DNA of 59,567 bases from Nitrospiria bacterium (GTDB lineage: Bacteria; Nitrospirota; UBA9217): positions 1 through 59,567 of the forward strand of contig CAKKRC010000001.1 of the NCBI GenBank assembly GCA_919902495.1. Reading direction: 5' to 3'. Below the pieces are notes generated by a model, which did not search any database, had not been told where the DNA came from, and saw only the letters and a list, made by a program, of their open reading frames with translations. This document shows, in pieces, positions 15,591 to 38,786 of the stretch. How positions within the stretch are numbered: the stretch's first letter is position 1; the number at the start of each line of letters is the position of its first letter. Made by a program: the position numbers and the translations under genes.

Positions 15591-15621
15591 ATATATACTG
15601 GTTAGGTAAAGGAGAAATAAT

Positions 15622-16455
15622 ATGTTATGTCCGTTGACTGGGGAGCAAGAATGCAAGAAAAAAATTGAGCCAGATATTAAGCTATTTTTCTTTGGCTTCC
15701 CATATTTAGATTCATTTGAAGATGTTGAATTAACTGTAACTGAAACCATGAAAGAATTTGGTTTTATACCGTACACTGCAAGGGATGAAGTGTTTCTAAA
15801 ACATATCCTTTGCAAGGTGTGTAATAAAATGCAGGAAAGTAGCTTTGGTATCTTCGAATTGACGGATAGAAATCCAAACGTAATGTATGAACTTGGCATG
15901 ATGGGTGGGATGGGTAAGCATTTCGTAATTATCGCCAGAAAAGGTACAACTGTTCCGTCTGATCTGGGGGGTATCGAATTTATTGAGTACAAGAGTTGTC
16001 AGGATTTAAAGAAAAAATTGGTTCATATAAAGGATGCTTTCAAAAAGATTGCTGAACGAACTTTAAGAGATATACAAAATATACCTGTAGGCCGGAAAGC
16101 GGATTCGACAGCGACCTCCTTTTCTTTGCCAGATATACTTCCGTCTACAACTTATAACGTTGAAACTGGTTGCGGATCGCTACATATTAGTATTTCCAAA
16201 ATCGATGGTAAACCTGTTAAGGTTCACGCACAAATGTCTAAATCCGGCGGTTGTGCGGCTTCAATGACAGATGCGTTATCATCAATGGTATCGGCTGCTT
16301 TACAATATAACGTTCCGGTAGATATCATTATACAGGAATTAAAAGGTGTACGATGTCCTGCTCCTGCTTGGGGTGAGGGCGGTAGTATTTTATCTTGTGC
16401 TGATGCGATAGCTCGAAAACTAGAGTTGGATATCCGTAATTCAACCAAAGATTAG
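15622..16455 (+). CDS. TIR/deoxyribosyltransferase-like domain fused to a TSCPD domain
   Basis: 277 residues with two parts. Residues about 18-150 form a Rossmann-like TIR/NDT-type domain: KLFFFGFPYLD, then SSFGIFELTDRNPNVMYELG (Glu90 at the expected catalytic position), MGKHFVII and PSDLGGIEFIEY. Such domains bind or cleave nucleotides, often NAD. Residues about 168-270 closely match the TSCPD domain from the C-terminus of B12-dependent ribonucleotide reductase (NrdJ): VETGCGSLHISIS, SKSGGCAASMTDAL, LKGVRCPAPAWGEGG and SILSCADAIARKLE, with Cys184, 211, 245 and 259. There is no reductase barrel. GGAG lies 7 nt before the ATG. It is A+T-rich and next to other TIR-like and caspase genes, so an immune role is inferred. 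I know of no described protein with this fusion. Confidence 0.8.
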   Translation: MLCPLTGEQECKKKIEPDIKLFFFGFPYLDSFEDVELTVTETMKEFGFIPYTARDEVFLKHILCKVCNKMQESSFGIFELTDRNPNVMYELGMMGGMGKHFVIIARKGTTVPSDLGGIEFIEYKSCQDLKKKLVHIKDAFKKIAERTLRDIQNIPVGRKADSTATSFSLPDILPSTTYNVETGCGSLHISISKIDGKPVKVHAQMSKSGGCAASMTDALSSMVSAALQYNVPVDIIIQELKGVRCPAPAWGEGGSILSCADAIARKLELDIRNSTKD

Positions 16456-16564
16456 GATTTTTGAGATTAAAAGAAATATGAATCGGACAGCAGGTCTGTG
16501 TGATTGAGTTTTGCGATTTGCCTGCCCACCCTCTGTTTTGGTGCCGAACCATTTGGAGTTTCAA

Positions 16565-17293
16565 ATGAATAATGTATTTGTGAGCAGACCAACCTGGATA
16601 GCGAGTGAATTTCAGCCTGGGCTTGAGTGCTTTCTCCGATTCATGAGAAGCCACGAACTCAATCCAAGAACACTCGGAGCCAGTGATTATCCGAGCAAAA
16701 CCCCACTGGACGAGGTCATTTCTTTGATGTCGCTGTGTTCTGGCGCTATTATTTTGGGCTACCCGCAAATCTATATCGAAAAAGGGTTGCTGAAGGATCA
16801 GTCCATACCTACTCCGAGTACGCAACCATATTTTCTCCCAACAGAGTGGAACCACATTGAAGCTGGCCTCGCACATGCGCGCGGCTTACCTCTTCTTGTA
16901 ATCCATCATAAGGGTATACGTCGGGGCATATTTGACCGAGGCGCAATAAGCAATTTTATTTATGAACGTGATCTAACGGATGCGTCCTGGCCATTACACG
17001 AGGATATCAGTGGCGCGTTTGCAAAGTGGAAATCTGACCTTCGTCAATCTAAGCCAATTGCTCAAAATGCAACTGGCGTCGCTTTAGAAATTCATCTTAT
17101 CCAGGCACGCGGTGTGCTCTGGAATAGATCGGCCGAAGGAATAGAGGAGGTCGCTTACTGCCCGAAATGCCATCTAGCGATGTCTGTGTTTCCGCCAGGT
17201 TCTGACGAGATGATTGCGTGCTCACAGTGTAACTTTATCGCTCCTTTTCGCCCCAGCGAAATAGGAGGGATAATCGCTGGCATTAAACAATAA
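16565..17293 (+). CDS. TIR/NDT-like protein with C-terminal zinc ribbon
   Basis: 242 residues. The N-terminal domain (1-150) begins MNNVFVSRPTW, with LNPRTLGASDYPSKTPLDEV, AIILGYPQIY, and WNHIEAGLAHARGLPLLVIH; Glu99 in the last motif sits where NDT- and TIR-like nucleotide hydrolases keep their catalytic Glu, followed by KGIRRGIFDRG. Residues 195-225 are a zinc ribbon (CPKC at 199-202, CSQC at 219-222). The ATG at 16565 has GGAG 6 nt upstream; an in-frame start at 16511 lacks one. It is 19 nt before the TIR gene, suggesting an operon. Its function is unknown; nucleotide cleavage or signal production is inference. Confidence 0.72.
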   Translation: MNNVFVSRPTWIASEFQPGLECFLRFMRSHELNPRTLGASDYPSKTPLDEVISLMSLCSGAIILGYPQIYIEKGLLKDQSIPTPSTQPYFLPTEWNHIEAGLAHARGLPLLVIHHKGIRRGIFDRGAISNFIYERDLTDASWPLHEDISGAFAKWKSDLRQSKPIAQNATGVALEIHLIQARGVLWNRSAEGIEEVAYCPKCHLAMSVFPPGSDEMIACSQCNFIAPFRPSEIGGIIAGIKQ

Positions 17294-17312
17294 ATTAGTG
17301 GAGGTGCATCTC

Positions 17313-17702
17313 ATGGCAAAGAAAAGAGCATTCATAAGTTTTGATTTTGATCACGATGAAGACTTGAGAAACCTGCTCGTTGGGCAAGCACGCAATTCTG
17401 ACACACCATTCGACCTTGCTGATTGGTCGCTGAAAGATGCATTAAGCGGGAATTGGCGTGACAAGGTTCGGACGCGTATTCGCTCCTGCGATGTCGTTAT
17501 AGTTATATGCGGAGTATACACTAACAACGCAACAGGTGTGAGCGCTGAAGTCAACATCGCCCGCGAAGAGAGCATCCCGTACTTTCTGCTCTGGGGACGG
17601 AGCGATAAGAGTTGCACCAAACCCCTGGCGGCTCTTGAAACGGACAAAATCTACAAGTGGACATGGGATAATCTTAAGGCCCTAATCGGTGGTGCACGCT
17701 AA
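17313..17702 (+). CDS. ThsB-like TIR-domain protein
   Basis: 129 residues made almost entirely of an MTH538/ThsB-type TIR-like domain: KRAFISFDFDHDEDLRNLL, FDLADWSLKDAL, RIRSCDVVIVICGVYTNNA and GVSAEVNIAREESIPYFLLW. Glu79 in SAEV is the expected catalytic residue. In Thoeris defence, ThsB-type TIR proteins use NAD to make a cyclic signal when phage is sensed. The ATG at 17313 has GGAGG 8 nt upstream. Its stop codon overlaps the caspase-gene start by one base, so the pair is translationally coupled; the partner is the likely effector. Confidence 0.85.
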   Translation: MAKKRAFISFDFDHDEDLRNLLVGQARNSDTPFDLADWSLKDALSGNWRDKVRTRIRSCDVVIVICGVYTNNATGVSAEVNIAREESIPYFLLWGRSDKSCTKPLAALETDKIYKWTWDNLKALIGGAR

Positions 17703-18649
17703 TGCGAAGAGCACTCATTATTGGCATTGACGAGTACCCCGGCTGTCCACTTCAGGGCTGCGTCAGTGATGCCACTCGTCTCGCACAAGTACTTGGTCGT
17801 CATCACGACGGGCGCCTCAATTTTCAGTGTGATGTCCTAACAGCGCCGCCGCAGACCATTTCCAGATCCTTGCTGCGACGTAGAATTAGCGAATTATTTG
17901 AGCACCCGGCAGACCTTGCATTTCTTCACTTTTCTGGTCACGGTACGATAAATGGCCTAGGCGGTTTCTTGGTTACTCCTGACTACTCTGAGTATGATGT
18001 TGGGATTTCCATGTCAGAGGTACTTGCTTTAGCCAATCAGGCGCAGGTCGATGAAGTATTTATTACCCTTGATTGTTGCCATAGCGGCGCGTTTGGACTA
18101 GTGCCCGCAGTGAGCAATGACAAGGTCATACTTTCCGAAGGTGTTTCGGTTATTACCGCAACCAGAAAAGGCCAAGAGGCCTTAGAAGTCGGAGGCGGTG
18201 GAGTGTTCTCTTCGCTTCTTGTCGAAGCGCTCGAAGGTGGAGCGGCCGGCATTCTCGGTGAAGTATCCGCGGCAAGTGTGTATGCTTATATTGATAATGC
18301 TATGGGTGCATGGGATCAACGCCCACTGTTCAAGGCGAATGTAAATCGCTTCGCGCGTCTTCGTGATACACCTCCGAAGGTCGATCACACACTTCTAAGA
18401 AGATTGCCCTCGTTCTTTCCCCTGCCAGCAGAGGATCTTCCCTTGTCACCAGCATTTGAGCCTGAGATTGAACCCCATGATATTGAGAAGGAGGAAATCT
18501 TTCGGGGGCTCCTGAAGCTTCGTTACGCGGGGCTTGTAGAGCCTGTTGGCGCAGATCACATGTACCACGCCGCAGTACAAAGTAAGTCGTGCAGACTCAC
18601 ACGATTGGGTCGCTACTATTGGCGGTTGGTGAATGATAACAAAATATGA
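17702..18649 (+). CDS. Caspase-like (peptidase C14) protease, likely TIR-activated effector
   Basis: 315 residues. Residues 1-215 are a caspase-fold domain: RRALIIGIDEYPGCPLQGC at the start, the catalytic His80 in HFSGHG, and the catalytic Cys126 in LDCCHSG. Residues about 255-312 look like a small winged-helix domain (EEIFRGLLKLRYAGLVEPVG, then CRLTRLGRYYW), perhaps for sensing or dimerisation. The start overlaps the TIR gene stop. A TIR gene coupled to a caspase-like gene matches the layout I recall for type IV Thoeris, where the TIR-made signal turns on the protease. Catalytic residues are intact. System membership is inferred from context. Confidence 0.85.
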   Translation: MRRALIIGIDEYPGCPLQGCVSDATRLAQVLGRHHDGRLNFQCDVLTAPPQTISRSLLRRRISELFEHPADLAFLHFSGHGTINGLGGFLVTPDYSEYDVGISMSEVLALANQAQVDEVFITLDCCHSGAFGLVPAVSNDKVILSEGVSVITATRKGQEALEVGGGGVFSSLLVEALEGGAAGILGEVSAASVYAYIDNAMGAWDQRPLFKANVNRFARLRDTPPKVDHTLLRRLPSFFPLPAEDLPLSPAFEPEIEPHDIEKEEIFRGLLKLRYAGLVEPVGADHMYHAAVQSKSCRLTRLGRYYWRLVNDNKI

Positions 18650-18724
18650 TTAGCTAACAATCGGCGCCACTTTATTTATTGTCCGAGGCGAGGGATAGGC
18701 CGAGCAATAGCCGACAAGATAATT

Positions 18725-18772
18725 CTAACCTGCGGCTCGACCCGACGAAACGCGGGTCAGCCGCGCGTTAGC
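18725..18772 (+). other. attC-like recombination site closing the island
   Basis: The folded pattern of an integron attC site is present. Outer CTAAC (18725-18729) pairs with GTTAG (18767-18771), then an unpaired spacer, GCGGCT/AGCCGC, one extrahelical C (18738), GACCCG/CGGGTC, and an 8-nt loop. An alternative longer site would use GCTAAC at 18653-18658 with GTTAGC. It lies just after the caspase gene, in the expected orientation for plus-strand cassettes. No integrase is in the window. Confidence 0.55.
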
Positions 18773-18896
18773 CTTACACAATGCGTTGGGTTTTGCATGA
18801 ACCGTTCCGTTTGCACGGGGATGACGAAATCGAAACTGAAGATGTATCATCGACTGCCGACTGCACCATGACTATCGACTGCATCTCGACTGATCT

Positions 18897-34666: not shown

Positions 34667-35548
34667 TCATGAAGCCTTCTTGACGAAGGCCGCCGTCCAG
34701 TCGGAATAATCTTTCTCATCGGGAAGTAGGTCAGCAGCAGGACCAAAGTCGACTTTGCTCACGATAGGCGCCTCATTCTTGAACATGTTCTTATATTCGT
34801 CGGCCAGGCGCTGTCCGTGCTCACTTAAGTCCTTACAAAGCAGATTGCTAAAGAATATCCCGTCATTAGTTTGGTTAGCAATTGCCTCAACTGAGCTAGG
34901 GTAGTCTAAGTTAACGTGGCCCTCACTATATGGAAGACCAAAGTACAGCTTTGGAAATTTAGGGTTCTTTTCAGCAGACTCAGTTTTATATTTCTCTATT
35001 AATGTGTTCCGCTTTTCGATTGAACCGTCAAGACATCGCGCTGTTTGAGCAAGCGTCATCACAAGATTCAAAGGGCGGCCAACTAGCGATAGGCGCTCAA
35101 ATATTACCTCTTGCAGAATATCAGTCGGAAGAGAAGTCAGTTGTAGCGTTTGGAGGTCCGCTTTAAAAGAAAACAGTTCTTCTTCGGGTACTTCCCCCTT
35201 TATAAATCTTTCGTAAAATGCCTGCGCCGCAGCCCTATCAGTATCATATTTAATTTTCAATTCTTTGACATATTGCTTTTTGAGAGACAGCAGAGAGTTG
35301 CAGATGCCGAAGGCGATCGCAATGGCGGCGTTAGTGTTCCGTATTTCGCGAAGCAATTCTTCGCGACGTTTACCACGCTCAACGATTCTCTGCGCTGCAT
35401 AAGCGCCAGCAAAGGCACCGGCAAGCGAACCAATTAGCGCTGTCGTAAACGCAGAATTGGCGAAATTCTTGAGTGTATCCCAGACCATTGAATTAGTTAT
35501 CGATGACCAAAAATGGCTGAGCGACTGTGCTAATTCGCTTTTAGACAA
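34667..35548 (-). CDS. Cassette gene: membrane-associated protein of unknown function
   Basis: 293 residues, not recognised. Residues about 30-52 (SAFTTALIGSLAGAFAGAYAAQRIV) are a TM or glycine-zipper segment; the rest is charged and helical (RREELLREIRNTNAAIAI, LIEKYKTESAEKN). It starts with TTG, with GGAGG four bases upstream. Base composition is A+T-richer than flanking chromosomal genes, and it lies between attC-like sites B and C, so it is probably a mobile cassette gene. Confidence 0.65.
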   Translation of the reverse strand: MSKSELAQSLSHFWSSITNSMVWDTLKNFANSAFTTALIGSLAGAFAGAYAAQRIVERGKRREELLREIRNTNAAIAIAFGICNSLLSLKKQYVKELKIKYDTDRAAAQAFYERFIKGEVPEEELFSFKADLQTLQLTSLPTDILQEVIFERLSLVGRPLNLVMTLAQTARCLDGSIEKRNTLIEKYKTESAEKNPKFPKLYFGLPYSEGHVNLDYPSSVEAIANQTNDGIFFSNLLCKDLSEHGQRLADEYKNMFKNEAPIVSKVDFGPAADLLPDEKDYSDWTAAFVKKAS

Positions 35549-35602
35549 GTGGCCTCCAATATTGTTTATGAGCAGGCATAGTCAGTCCAGTCTTACTTAC
35601 TA

Positions 35603-35656
35603 CTAACGCGCACCTGCCGCGCCGACTTTGGCGCGTCGCAGTCGAGGCGCTGGTTA
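35603..35656 (-). other. attC-like site C
   Basis: TAAC (35604-35607) pairs with GTTA (35653-35656), then GCGC/GCGC, TGC/GCA and CGCGCC/GGCGCG (35618-35635) with a 6-nt loop and several one-sided bulges. It sits between two minus-strand cassette genes. Confidence 0.6.
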
Positions 35657-35821
35657 ATTAACGATGTTCTGTTCGTCTACTTTCCTTTTGGCCTCCAACT
35701 TACGCTTTCTATATATGTCTAGGAGTGGCTTAAAGGGCAATAAAAAAAATATGACAACCTGCCCCACGGAAAGCAACAACGCGGGCAGTACTATGGAGTC
35801 ACGGAACCAACCTTGCCTTCT

Positions 35822-35960
35822 TGCTTTGAACTTGCAATTCCCTGTAGCTCGCTACAGGGTCACCTTGTAGAGGGAAGAGTTTGAGAAACCGCAGGTTGCT
35901 CAAATGATAATAGTCTTCCCTGTTATAGATACCACGCAGCTTGCTGCGTGGAGGTTCATT
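35822..35960. repeat. Multi-hairpin palindromic element
   Basis: Contains CCTGTAG/CTACAGG (35841-35858), a nested structure AGGGAAGA/TCTTCCCT enclosing TTGAG/CTCAA (35871-35921), and CCACGCAGC/GCTGCGTGG (35932-35951). It resembles the non-coding palindromic elements mobilised by Y1 HUH transposases, but no transposase is nearby. It overlaps the 3' end of the cassette gene at 35900-36310. Confidence 0.6.
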
Positions 35961-36310
35961 TTATATATTCTGCGCTCTCTAACAGTTGCGTGGGAAACCA
36001 TTTTTAGCTTTGGCCCGATATCCTCGTTTGGCAATATAAAATAATATCCACCGTACTTTAATTCGTAACGGTCAGATGCGGGAACAAACTTTCTTTCAAA
36101 CTCTTTATACTTTTCTGGTTTACAGTGAAAACGACTGCCTTCTTTGACTTGATCCTTGGCTTGATCATACAGAGCAACAAGAATTATGCCCTCTGGGATG
36201 ATGCACTCAAACGATCCGGTACAGGGTGCAGCCCATGCAGTTAAGCCAGTAGTTTTAATATTCTGGGTGGTAATAAACCGATCGCCATTAAGAACAGATT
36301 CGATGCTCAT
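35900..36310 (-). CDS. Cassette gene of unknown function, 3' end replaced by a palindromic element
   Basis: 136 residues, not recognised. It starts MSIESVLNGDRFITTQNI and has a compact alpha/beta look (ECIIPEGIILVALYDQAKD, YELKYGGYYFILPNEDIGP). The last ~16 codons after RERRIYKM are read through the palindromic element at 35822-35960, so the native C-terminus is probably lost. It lies between attC-like sites C and D on the same strand. AAGGATGG precedes the ATG. Confidence 0.55.
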   Translation of the reverse strand: MSIESVLNGDRFITTQNIKTTGLTAWAAPCTGSFECIIPEGIILVALYDQAKDQVKEGSRFHCKPEKYKEFERKFVPASDRYELKYGGYYFILPNEDIGPKLKMVSHATVRERRIYKMNLHAASCVVSITGKTIII

Positions 36311-36335
36311 GTTTTTCCATCCTTACGATTTTCGG

Positions 36336-36386
36336 ATTAACGCGCGCGTGTACCGCCGCGAAGCGGTCGGACACGACGCGCTGGTT
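36336..36386 (-). other. attC-like site D
   Basis: AAC (36339-36341) faces GTT (36384-36386). The stem has GCGCG/CGCGC, CGTGT/ACACG with one extrahelical A (36376), and ACCGC/GCGGT with a CGG bulge and a 6-nt loop. The one-sided extra bases are typical of attC. It lies between two minus-strand cassette genes. Confidence 0.65.
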
Positions 36387-36404
36387 GTGATTGATGCCTT
36401 TCCG

Positions 36405-37517
36405 TTAAAAAAGTATATCCTGCTCGTCAGAATCACTCACGGAATAGTTTGTGGATGTTTCTATCGAGGCCTCTTTACGGCGCTTTATTGTTTCGATAAG
36501 CGTAGAAATCTGAGAGCCCTTAAGATCAGGTTCGTTAAACATCTCGGCAGCTCCGTCAAACATGTGGATGAAGTTTTTATTGGTTAAAATTTGTCTTAGA
36601 TGGCTGGCTATGTCACTTTTAATCGTTTCATCTGATCGGAATGAGTAGTTGAATAACCCCGCTATGATATCTGAAACCTGCACACCATAATGTTCGACTG
36701 AGTTTACAGCAGAAACTGTGGATACGGAAAAATCGCCTGTTAATGTGCAGACATCAGATATCCGGAAGGTTTCTCCGAGGTTTGAAATATTGCCAATAAA
36801 AGAAGCCAAACCGTGAGTGCTTGTTGCCTTTGTAAAATCGTAGATAACTTTGGCGCTATTTATACCGAAGCAACTTCTCAAATGGATTATTAGGCCTGTT
36901 AATATTGCTTCGTAAAAACCGGGGTTATACGGCTGTGCAGTTATCTTTATATACGCAAGCTGCGGCTTATGAAGAAATGGACTGAGAAGCTCTGCTGCTT
37001 TTTCATGTTCTAAAGTTTGCATGCAATGCTGCCACAGTTTTTGTAATGCATCTTCATCTCGTCTTCGGATCAGATAATTATAATGACGAAGGAAAGCATC
37101 ATACCATTCTAAACCCATAGTAGCCGGTAGATAATAGGCTAGCTGATTAACATAAATCAGAACCACGCCATCTTTAAATAAGTTTACTCCATCAAGGGTT
37201 AGAGCCGGCAGAATGCAATCGTCCACAAATTTACGGGTCAGAGCGCTACGTTTATCAACAAGGTAACAACAGAATTTGTCATCTTTGCTTTCTAGATAAT
37301 CTATGAAGGCATGTAATTTTTTTTGCCCACTGCTCCGCCCCAATAACCGAGAAAACTTTAGCTCTGATCCTTTATCACCGCAAAATACCGTTGATGATAA
37401 ATTATTCAATTCATCATGGGATAGCATGTTACAAGCTAATGAGAACAATGGTTGATCTGGGTTGACAAAGTCGACACCCGTGTAACCGCTCTCGTCTATG
37501 TAAATATCGTAATCCAT
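36405..37517 (-). CDS. DUF3800-domain protein
   Basis: 370 residues. The N-terminus MDYDIYIDESGYTG has the conserved DES motif of DUF3800, an RNase H-like fold family found often in mobile and defence islands; nuclease activity is suggested by fold only. VEHYGVQVSDIIAGLFNYSF near residue 290 carries the C-terminal Asp expected for the site. I start at the ATG at 37517, since the ten extra codons upstream are not conserved-looking. A+T-rich, first of the three minus-strand cassette genes, followed by attC-like site D. Confidence 0.82.
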   Translation of the reverse strand: MDYDIYIDESGYTGVDFVNPDQPLFSLACNMLSHDELNNLSSTVFCGDKGSELKFSRLLGRSSGQKKLHAFIDYLESKDDKFCCYLVDKRSALTRKFVDDCILPALTLDGVNLFKDGVVLIYVNQLAYYLPATMGLEWYDAFLRHYNYLIRRRDEDALQKLWQHCMQTLEHEKAAELLSPFLHKPQLAYIKITAQPYNPGFYEAILTGLIIHLRSCFGINSAKVIYDFTKATSTHGLASFIGNISNLGETFRISDVCTLTGDFSVSTVSAVNSVEHYGVQVSDIIAGLFNYSFRSDETIKSDIASHLRQILTNKNFIHMFDGAAEMFNEPDLKGSQISTLIETIKRRKEASIETSTNYSVSDSDEQDILF

Positions 37518-37862
37518 CAAGTAATAAAAACACGCGCTCCAATACAATGTTTAGGCTTCTTTCTGAACGCATTATTCAGAAAGAAGCTGGTTGGACTAAG
37601 CCGTTGTGCGCCACGACGCTATGGGATTTCAAAAGATTTATCAGTTTAAAGCGAAGATCGCAGAGACGGCATTGGCAGGGGCGTGAGACTTGTTCGATTG
37701 AAAAGCGGCGATTCCGGACTGTGCCGCAAGCCCCTTTCGCCCTTTCGAAAACGACTATACAGGAAAAAGGGCTTCCGGGCAATAGGGTATCGTTTCGAAA
37801 AACAGGGCTGTTTTCGGAGAAGGATGACCGGGTGAGGTTGTTCATTCCAGCGCTTGCGGTAG
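37518..37862. other. Spacer with a 13-bp perfect hairpin
   Basis: GCTTCTTTCTGAA (37555-37567) and its inverse (37575-37587) form a 13-bp stem with a 7-nt loop, followed by CTGGTTGG, which resembles one half of the attC-like sites. It could be a degenerate attC, a terminator or an IS91-type terminus. The remaining 275 nt toward the transposase hold no credible gene. Confidence 0.45.
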
Positions 37863-38786
37863 TCATATTCGCGGTGGTCCTTTGCAGCGCGCGGGCCGCA
37901 TGATCTCGGTCGTGCGCATCGTGCGTTCACCGCAGGCAGGGCATTTGGCGACATCGATGCCGGCGATTCTGAACAAGGTTTCTTGCCATGTTTCGGTCTT
38001 CTGTTCCGCCTTGTTCTGCCCGGTGCAGGATAGAAGTACCCTGCACTGGTCAAGTTTCTTCCTGCGGCACCTGTTGCCCAACAGGCCATAATGCCTGATT
38101 TTCACAAATCGGTCAGGCAGCACGTGAAGCAGGAACCGCCGGATAAACTCGTCGGCGTAAACGGTCATGATCTTGCTCTTGTTGTTATCGGCATAATACC
38201 GCCATCGGAACGAGACCTTGTCGGCCTCCGTCTTCACGATCCGATGGTTGCTGATCGCGATCCGGTGGGTGTATCTTCCGAGATATTCAAGAACGCCTTT
38301 ACTCCCGTCGAACGGCGGCTTGCAGTAGACAACCCACTTCTTTTTGTATAGATCGGAGATCAGGGCACCCCACGCCGCAGGCTGCGCGAGATGACTTACC
38401 GCGCCGGGGTAAACGAGTTTGTTCTCGGCACGGAGTTTTCGCAGATAGGCAAGGAACTTCCCCCGAAAGAGCTTCGACATTACTTTGACCGGGAGGAAGA
38501 AGTCATTCTTGCACGCCTTCCATTTCCGTCCGTCACGGGACAACCCCCCGCCCGTGACGATGTTGTGGATATGAGGATGGTCCATGAGATTCTGTCCCCA
38601 GGTGTGCAGGATCGAGATAAACCCGATGTCCGCGCCAAGATGCTTCCGGGTTTCCGCGAGCTGGGCCAGGGTTTCTGAAACGGACTTGAACAGGATGCCG
38701 TAGAGGACTTCCTGATTCCGGAGCACAAGAGGGTTGAGAAGATCGGGGAAGGTGACAAAAAGCCCGCTGGACTTCTGATGGCACGG
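37863..38786 (-). pseudogene. IS91-family (HUH Y2) transposase, 5'-truncated
   Basis: The frame is open from 38786 to a stop at 37863 and matches the IS91 transposase core: FVTFPDLLNPLVLRNQEVLY, the HUH motif HPHIHNIVTGGGLS, GVLEYLGRYTHRIAISNH and FVKIRHYGLLGNR, ending in a Cys-containing tail (CPACGER). The N-terminal zinc-binding region expected before FVTFPDLLNPL is absent: an in-frame stop lies 28 codons before VLR. The element is therefore probably dead. IS91-type elements move by rolling-circle transposition and can mobilise neighbouring DNA, here the cassette run. Confidence 0.85.

Follow-up and report, generated by a model that had tools for sequence, protein, structure and literature searches.

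An intact fusion of an NDT/DNPH1/TIR-superfamily domain with a TSCPD domain in an integron cassette of a Nitrospiria bacterium

The window analysed here, meaning the whole stretch of 59,567 nucleotides of contig CAKKRC010000001.1 (Nitrospiria bacterium, assembly GCA_919902495.1), carries an insert of four genes between udg and mutS, the first of which encodes a protein of two domains (Table 1). This gene is a single intact open reading frame with no internal stops, and its ATG lies a few bases downstream of an AGGAGA-type ribosome site. No promoter-like match was retrieved directly upstream of it, promoter-like counts being at or below chance. Its GC content is 38.8%, against approximately 57-61% for udg, mutS and recQ. 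The A+T-rich island pointed out in a preliminary description of this DNA was therefore borne out, and can be refined to a 3.17-kb integron cassette; the TIR and caspase genes reported beside it are indeed present, and no reductase lies nearby, as had also been claimed, the NrdJ of this genome being encoded on another contig. The gene is an intact fusion with a predicted fold for each half, its TSCPD domain has kept the cysteine loops while losing reductase-type residues, and it is carried by an integron cassette.

Table 1. Features of the fusion gene and of the cassette that carries it (window coordinates).
Feature	Position	Strand	Remarks
Fusion gene, 277 aa	15622..16455	+	NDT/DNPH1/TIR-superfamily domain (~17-152) and TSCPD (IscU-like) domain (169-273)
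N-terminal domain, residues 17-152	15670..16077	+	Predicted nucleophile E90 in NPNVMYELG; RDE at 54-56
TSCPD/IscU-like domain, residues 169-273	16126..16440	+	Cys184, Cys211, Cys245 and Cys259 kept; without terminal zinc finger
Integron cassette with four genes (3.17 kb)	15602..18767	+	Inserted between udg and mutS
Left cassette boundary, GTTAGGT core (GTTRRRY)	15601..15607	+	Sister genome: GTTAGAC at the same point
attC-like hairpin at cassette end, CTAAC..GTTAG arms	18724..18773	+	DNA fold -18.1 kcal/mol
TIR-like protein with C-terminal CxxC..CxxC ribbon	16565..17293	+	Cassette companion, probably separate
ThsB-type TIR, type IV Thoeris-like	17313..17702	+	PF08937 at 1.3e-6, above cut-off
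EACC1-type caspase, TIR partner	17702..18649	+	PF00656 at 6.9e-16, above cut-off; SGHG and DCCHSG catalytic-type motifs

The N-terminal (residues 1-158) and C-terminal (159-277) parts of the protein were modelled separately, each alone. The AF2 model of the N-terminal part, for which the alignment was built from relatives on viral contigs, is confident (pLDDT 89.7, pTM 0.85) and displays a TIR/NDT-superfamily fold. Its best structural match is DNPH1 (Z 15.7, rmsd 2.0, 123 aligned), followed among solved structures by a deoxyribosyltransferase (Z 15.1), the CMP N-glycosidase MilB (14.7) and BcmB (14.2), while the TIR domains of SPARTA and SfSTING both reach Z 13.7. In profile searches of solved structures, DNPH1/Rcl is again the top match of the N-terminal family (1.3e-4), the glutamate of YELG being aligned. 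The NPNVMYELG motif occupies residues 84-92; its E90 is invariant in the alignments of the N-terminal relatives and, together with most of the family-conserved residues, is present in the fusion. Related domains are found in phage-borne and plasmid proteins, with assorted partner regions.

Calling this half TIR/NDT-like, as in the preliminary description, was therefore right, although the Pfam searches sustain only the TIR side of that name. The CAP12-PCTIR_TIR model (PF10137) scores above its cut-off (E 1.8e-6, 28.4 vs 24.7 bits) over residues 71-124 only, corresponding to profile positions 70-118/119, whereas the NDT model (PF05014) remains below its own (13.4 vs 28.8 bits, E 0.089). The PADLOC profiles of CBASS-TIR effectors match the same half at approximately 3e-6. 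The domain thus appears to lean towards the nucleotide N-hydrolases by structure and towards the TIR effectors by Pfam score. With the CAP12/Pycsar-type TIR effectors (PF10137; SfSTING TIR, 7un8) it shares the fold (Z 13.7, 23% identity), a profile match above the Pfam cut-off and the ELG catalytic glutamate. It differs from them in that the enzyme domain stands N-terminal to the TSCPD domain, only the C-terminal half of the PF10137 profile is matched, the protein contains neither STING nor a cyclic-nucleotide sensor, and no CD-NTase was found beside the gene. DNPH1/Rcl, MilB and the nucleoside deoxyribosyltransferases are the closest structures (Z 15.7 to 13.3), but the fusion is set apart from them by its score under the NDT cut-off and by its second domain. 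The 5'-phosphate-binding loop of DNPH1 is of the GSIRGG type; the putatively corresponding stretch of the fusion reads GFPYLDSF, and the loop is not evident.

The C-terminal half belongs to the TSCPD family as proposed, with a Pfam match (PF12637) over residues 178-269 that scores 63.8 bits (E 1.8e-17), well above the 22.8 needed, and a match to the NCBIfam B12-RNR model (NrdJ equivalog) at 4e-23 over residues 164-275. All four TSCPD cysteines are present, and the SC.D motif corresponds to S258-C259-A-D261. The AF2 model of residues 159-277 is also confident (pLDDT 91.0), and IscU/SufU are found among its top fold matches, weakly (Z approximately 6 over 87-92 residues); the hhalign comparison of TSCPD and IscU was not significant (P 0.02-0.03), and a sequence search of solved structures retrieved none with a TSCPD-like sequence. 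Nevertheless, these weak fold matches agree with the published description of the long C-terminus of class II reductases, in which an IscU-like domain with no reported role precedes a zinc finger (PMC9669993), and we take the TSCPD domain to be probably IscU-like. The cysteine-rich tail is reported to function in oligomerisation and electron delivery, its terminal cysteines being essential (PMC5704485). The fusion has the four cysteines and the predicted fold in common with the class II reductase tails (PMC9669993; PMC5704485; split NrdJb), at up to 53% identity. It differs from NrdJ/NrdJb in having no catalytic barrel and no tail with a terminal zinc finger: it stops soon after the SCADA motif, where the NrdJ of the host runs on with CPECPDCGG..CAVCRGCGFSKCG.

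A further difference from the reductase tails lies in the many reductase-conserved residues that have disappeared from the fused domain. With 23 non-redundant reductase TSCPDs as the reference set, conservation reaches 90% or more in 26 columns. The fusion has lost 10 of them (R169, G175, Y188, T190, N192, E200, F202, G206, R221 and R228), compared with six in reductase copies of like divergence and zero to four in stand-alone phage TSCPDs, and it retains all 12 of those situated in the cysteine loops. Under random placement, the loops would be spared with a probability of 1.9e-4, a value to be read knowing that the columns were picked after looking. This pattern suggests that the fused TSCPD has been released from its contacts with a reductase while keeping its cysteine site.

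Stand-alone TSCPD proteins of approximately 110-250 aa are encoded on 13 of the phage contigs inspected (L149-L154, L159, L160, L168, L172, L173, L175 and L177). Most of them retain the reductase-type conserved residues, some with the terminal zinc finger. One contig (L168) has a large reductase-like frame near its TSCPD gene. In several others no reductase is apparent in the few kb examined, and there the TSCPD gene is located near nuclease, recombination-type or UDG-like genes.

The gene reached this locus as part of a larger insertion. In ten relatives examined, udg and mutS are neighbours and the 3.17-kb cassette is missing. GTTAG is present at either end of the cassette, and the attC-like hairpin at its end folds better than all of 200 shuffled sequences (z -4.9); an attC scan of the whole window returned, beyond overlapping calls at 18724-18773, one weaker and unrelated call. 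The fusion gene begins 16 bp past the left boundary, and cassette genes generally begin shortly after the boundary. In a genome of the same genus (G001), the left flank is common up to window position 15605 (GGTTAG), and on the right the shared sequence starts again at approximately 18752; at the identical udg-mutS site this genome carries another insert of approximately 0.5 kb with its own attC hairpin (z -4.7). The host genome contains two integron-integrase matches above cut-off, both on other contigs, and no attC or cassette array was recognised beside them. We therefore interpret the insert as an integron cassette lodged at an outlying site of fixed position, where the integrase would act in trans.

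Some further features of these loci may be mentioned. The small cassette of the same-genus genome (contig C50, about 2478-2980) carries a gene for a small membrane-type protein. Both integrase frames of the host are approximately 490 residues long, compared with a model of 315 positions, because of an N-terminal extension. In several relatives (L079, L082, L083 and L085) the udg-mutS gap contains other small genes, hence repeated gene uptake; judged by eye, these are HIT-type in L082, L083 and L085 and four-helix-type in L079 and L085.

The codon usage of the fusion gene is foreign to its host. The GC3 values of its two halves are 0.35 and 0.27, the latter for the TSCPD half, compared with 0.94 for the stretch of the host nrdJ that encodes its TSCPD, 0.70 for udg and 0.82 for mutS, while the three downstream cassette genes range from 0.45 to 0.51. 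Low GC3 common to both halves, against the high value of the host nrdJ, speaks against a fresh capture of that gene and against an artefact of assembly from host sequence. These values speak for a separate A+T-rich donor of the fusion gene and make recent recombination with the host improbable. In the TSCPD tree, the NrdJ copies of the family group together (98/97) to the exclusion of the fusion, which is located on a long branch. Capture of the TSCPD domain from the resident nrdJ was also considered and rejected, given this exclusion from the NrdJ clade, the identity of 48% to the host NrdJ and the GC3 of 0.27 against 0.94.

A second fusion was sought in approximately 1,500 genomes, in plasmids, in phages and, with a coarse pattern, in GTDB and IMG/VR, a survey with partial coverage of bacteria; none was found. 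The fusion was not retrieved elsewhere in the 14 genomes of the host class, being missing from all 13 others (nearly all of which have NrdJ), nor by a search with the N-terminal half in 296 genomes of the phylum, nor in four other groups (297, 395, 398 and 168 genomes), where in three of the groups a ceiling of E 1e-26 to 1e-28 was applied to keep out reductase hits, so that weak fusions could escape. Two TSCPD frames recovered from these group searches proved to be pieces of NrdJ. A viral scan with the full fusion as query gave no match, and the pattern MYELG..KxGGC gave one match in IMG/VR and five in GTDB, all of them unrelated proteins; this pattern, with its exact MYELG and limited spacing, is narrow and had no positive control, as the genome of the window possibly lies outside the set. 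The literature search likewise found no paper describing a TIR-TSCPD protein, consistent with the earlier remark that the fusion is unfamiliar. With only one occurrence, there is no orthologue and no dN/dS, and thus no evidence for selection on the fusion as such.

Taking these features together, we tentatively favour, with a confidence a little short of even, the idea that the product of this cassette-borne gene is an N-glycosidase effector whose IscU-like domain binds metal and serves in regulation or oligomerisation. The N-terminal NDT/DNPH1/TIR-superfamily domain would cleave a (deoxy)nucleotide or NAD through E90. The TSCPD would be the IscU-like domain known from class II reductases, now detached from the reductase, its four cysteines probably binding Zn or an Fe-S cluster. 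Through oligomerisation or as a metal/redox switch, it would keep the enzyme off until a trigger arrives, most likely phage infection or a similar stress. The fold itself does not imply a role in defence, since the superfamily also includes housekeeping hydrolases. It had initially been suggested that TSCPD senses a nucleotide or reductase-related cue, such as phage nucleotide metabolism, and gates the cleavage; this received no direct support. The published IscU-like fold points to a metal, redox or oligomerisation role.

TIR/NDT-type effectors occur with many sensor domains, and none with an IscU-like reductase domain was found in the literature and collections searched. The stronger proposal, that the fusion is a new sensor-effector pairing in which an IscU-like domain was repurposed as an Fe-S/Zn or redox switch on an N-glycosidase by which infected cells are killed or stalled and which is spread by cassettes, appears rather doubtful to us. 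If the protein is active, it would tie the cleavage of nucleotides in immunity to the state of metals or redox, and what TSCPD binds could be learned in a small system separable from the reductase. The locus is also an example of a cassette with a defence-type module that is exchanged at one fixed site, between udg and mutS, in a class of bacteria that has received little study.

The single occurrence among all sets searched and the long branch in the TSCPD tree could also be expected of a passenger, a chance fusion carried along by its cassette that has hardly any function, or none, and is possibly decaying. We consider this unlikely, because the frame is intact with a good ribosome site, the family-conserved catalytic glutamate is retained, both halves give confident fold models, and the residue losses spare every cysteine loop (with the proviso given above for columns chosen post hoc).

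A metabolic role, in which a nucleotide-cleaning hydrolase works with a class II reductase or regulates it through TSCPD, is suggested by the closest fold, DNPH1 being a deoxynucleotide N-hydrolase, by TSCPD being a domain of reductases and by the presence of NrdJ in the host. Nevertheless, it seems similarly unlikely, as none of the other 13 genomes in the class, almost all NrdJ-positive, has the gene, its cassette and codon usage are both foreign, and the reductase-type residues are lost. The same losses bear on the idea of an integrated decoy, in which TSCPD would mimic the class II reductase tail and a reductase-binding phage or host factor would trigger the enzyme. Indeed, many phage contigs carry NrdJ bearing TSCPD or stand-alone TSCPD, so that reductase tails are part of phage biology. 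However, a decoy ought to keep the conserved strand positions, whereas those lost include alternate positions of two strands (188/190/192 and 200/202), and the zinc finger is missing too. The loss of so many reductase-conserved residues argues against a faithful mimic or partner of the reductase, and we regard the decoy as very unlikely.

As for the genes that accompany the N-glycosidase candidate, the TIR and caspase frames abut. In the part of the work of Rousset (2025) relayed in PMC12847820, type IV Thoeris is described as a system in which N7-cADPR activates a caspase-like protease, and the TIR and caspase make-up reported there is matched by this pair. EACC1-type caspases are common on plasmids, and in all four that were opened a TIR gene lies immediately upstream, without the fusion, which is thus outside the module as found there. 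The pair is a separate and widespread type IV Thoeris-like module with a codon usage unlike that of the fusion. That the fusion is a fourth component of this system, for example a signal degrader or regulator, is highly improbable: the genes have strand and cassette in common and no second attC between them, but the fusion differs in GC3 from the three downstream genes (0.27-0.35 vs 0.45-0.51), a 110-bp gap intervenes, and the pair occurs without it on four plasmids, so that the neighbourhood alone does not place it in that system. The remaining cassette protein, TIR-like with a zinc-ribbon end, is named by no family library and has matches of approximately 37% identity on Halorubrum and Rhodococcus plasmids; close to its Halorubrum relative are a gene with a cyclase domain and two TIR genes. 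Elsewhere in the window, a second A+T-rich island (34667-38726) contains a membrane-type protein, a gene with a YIDESG start that is DUF3800-like by eye (36405-37547) and a frame resembling a portion of an IS91/IS801-type transposase (37863-38726).
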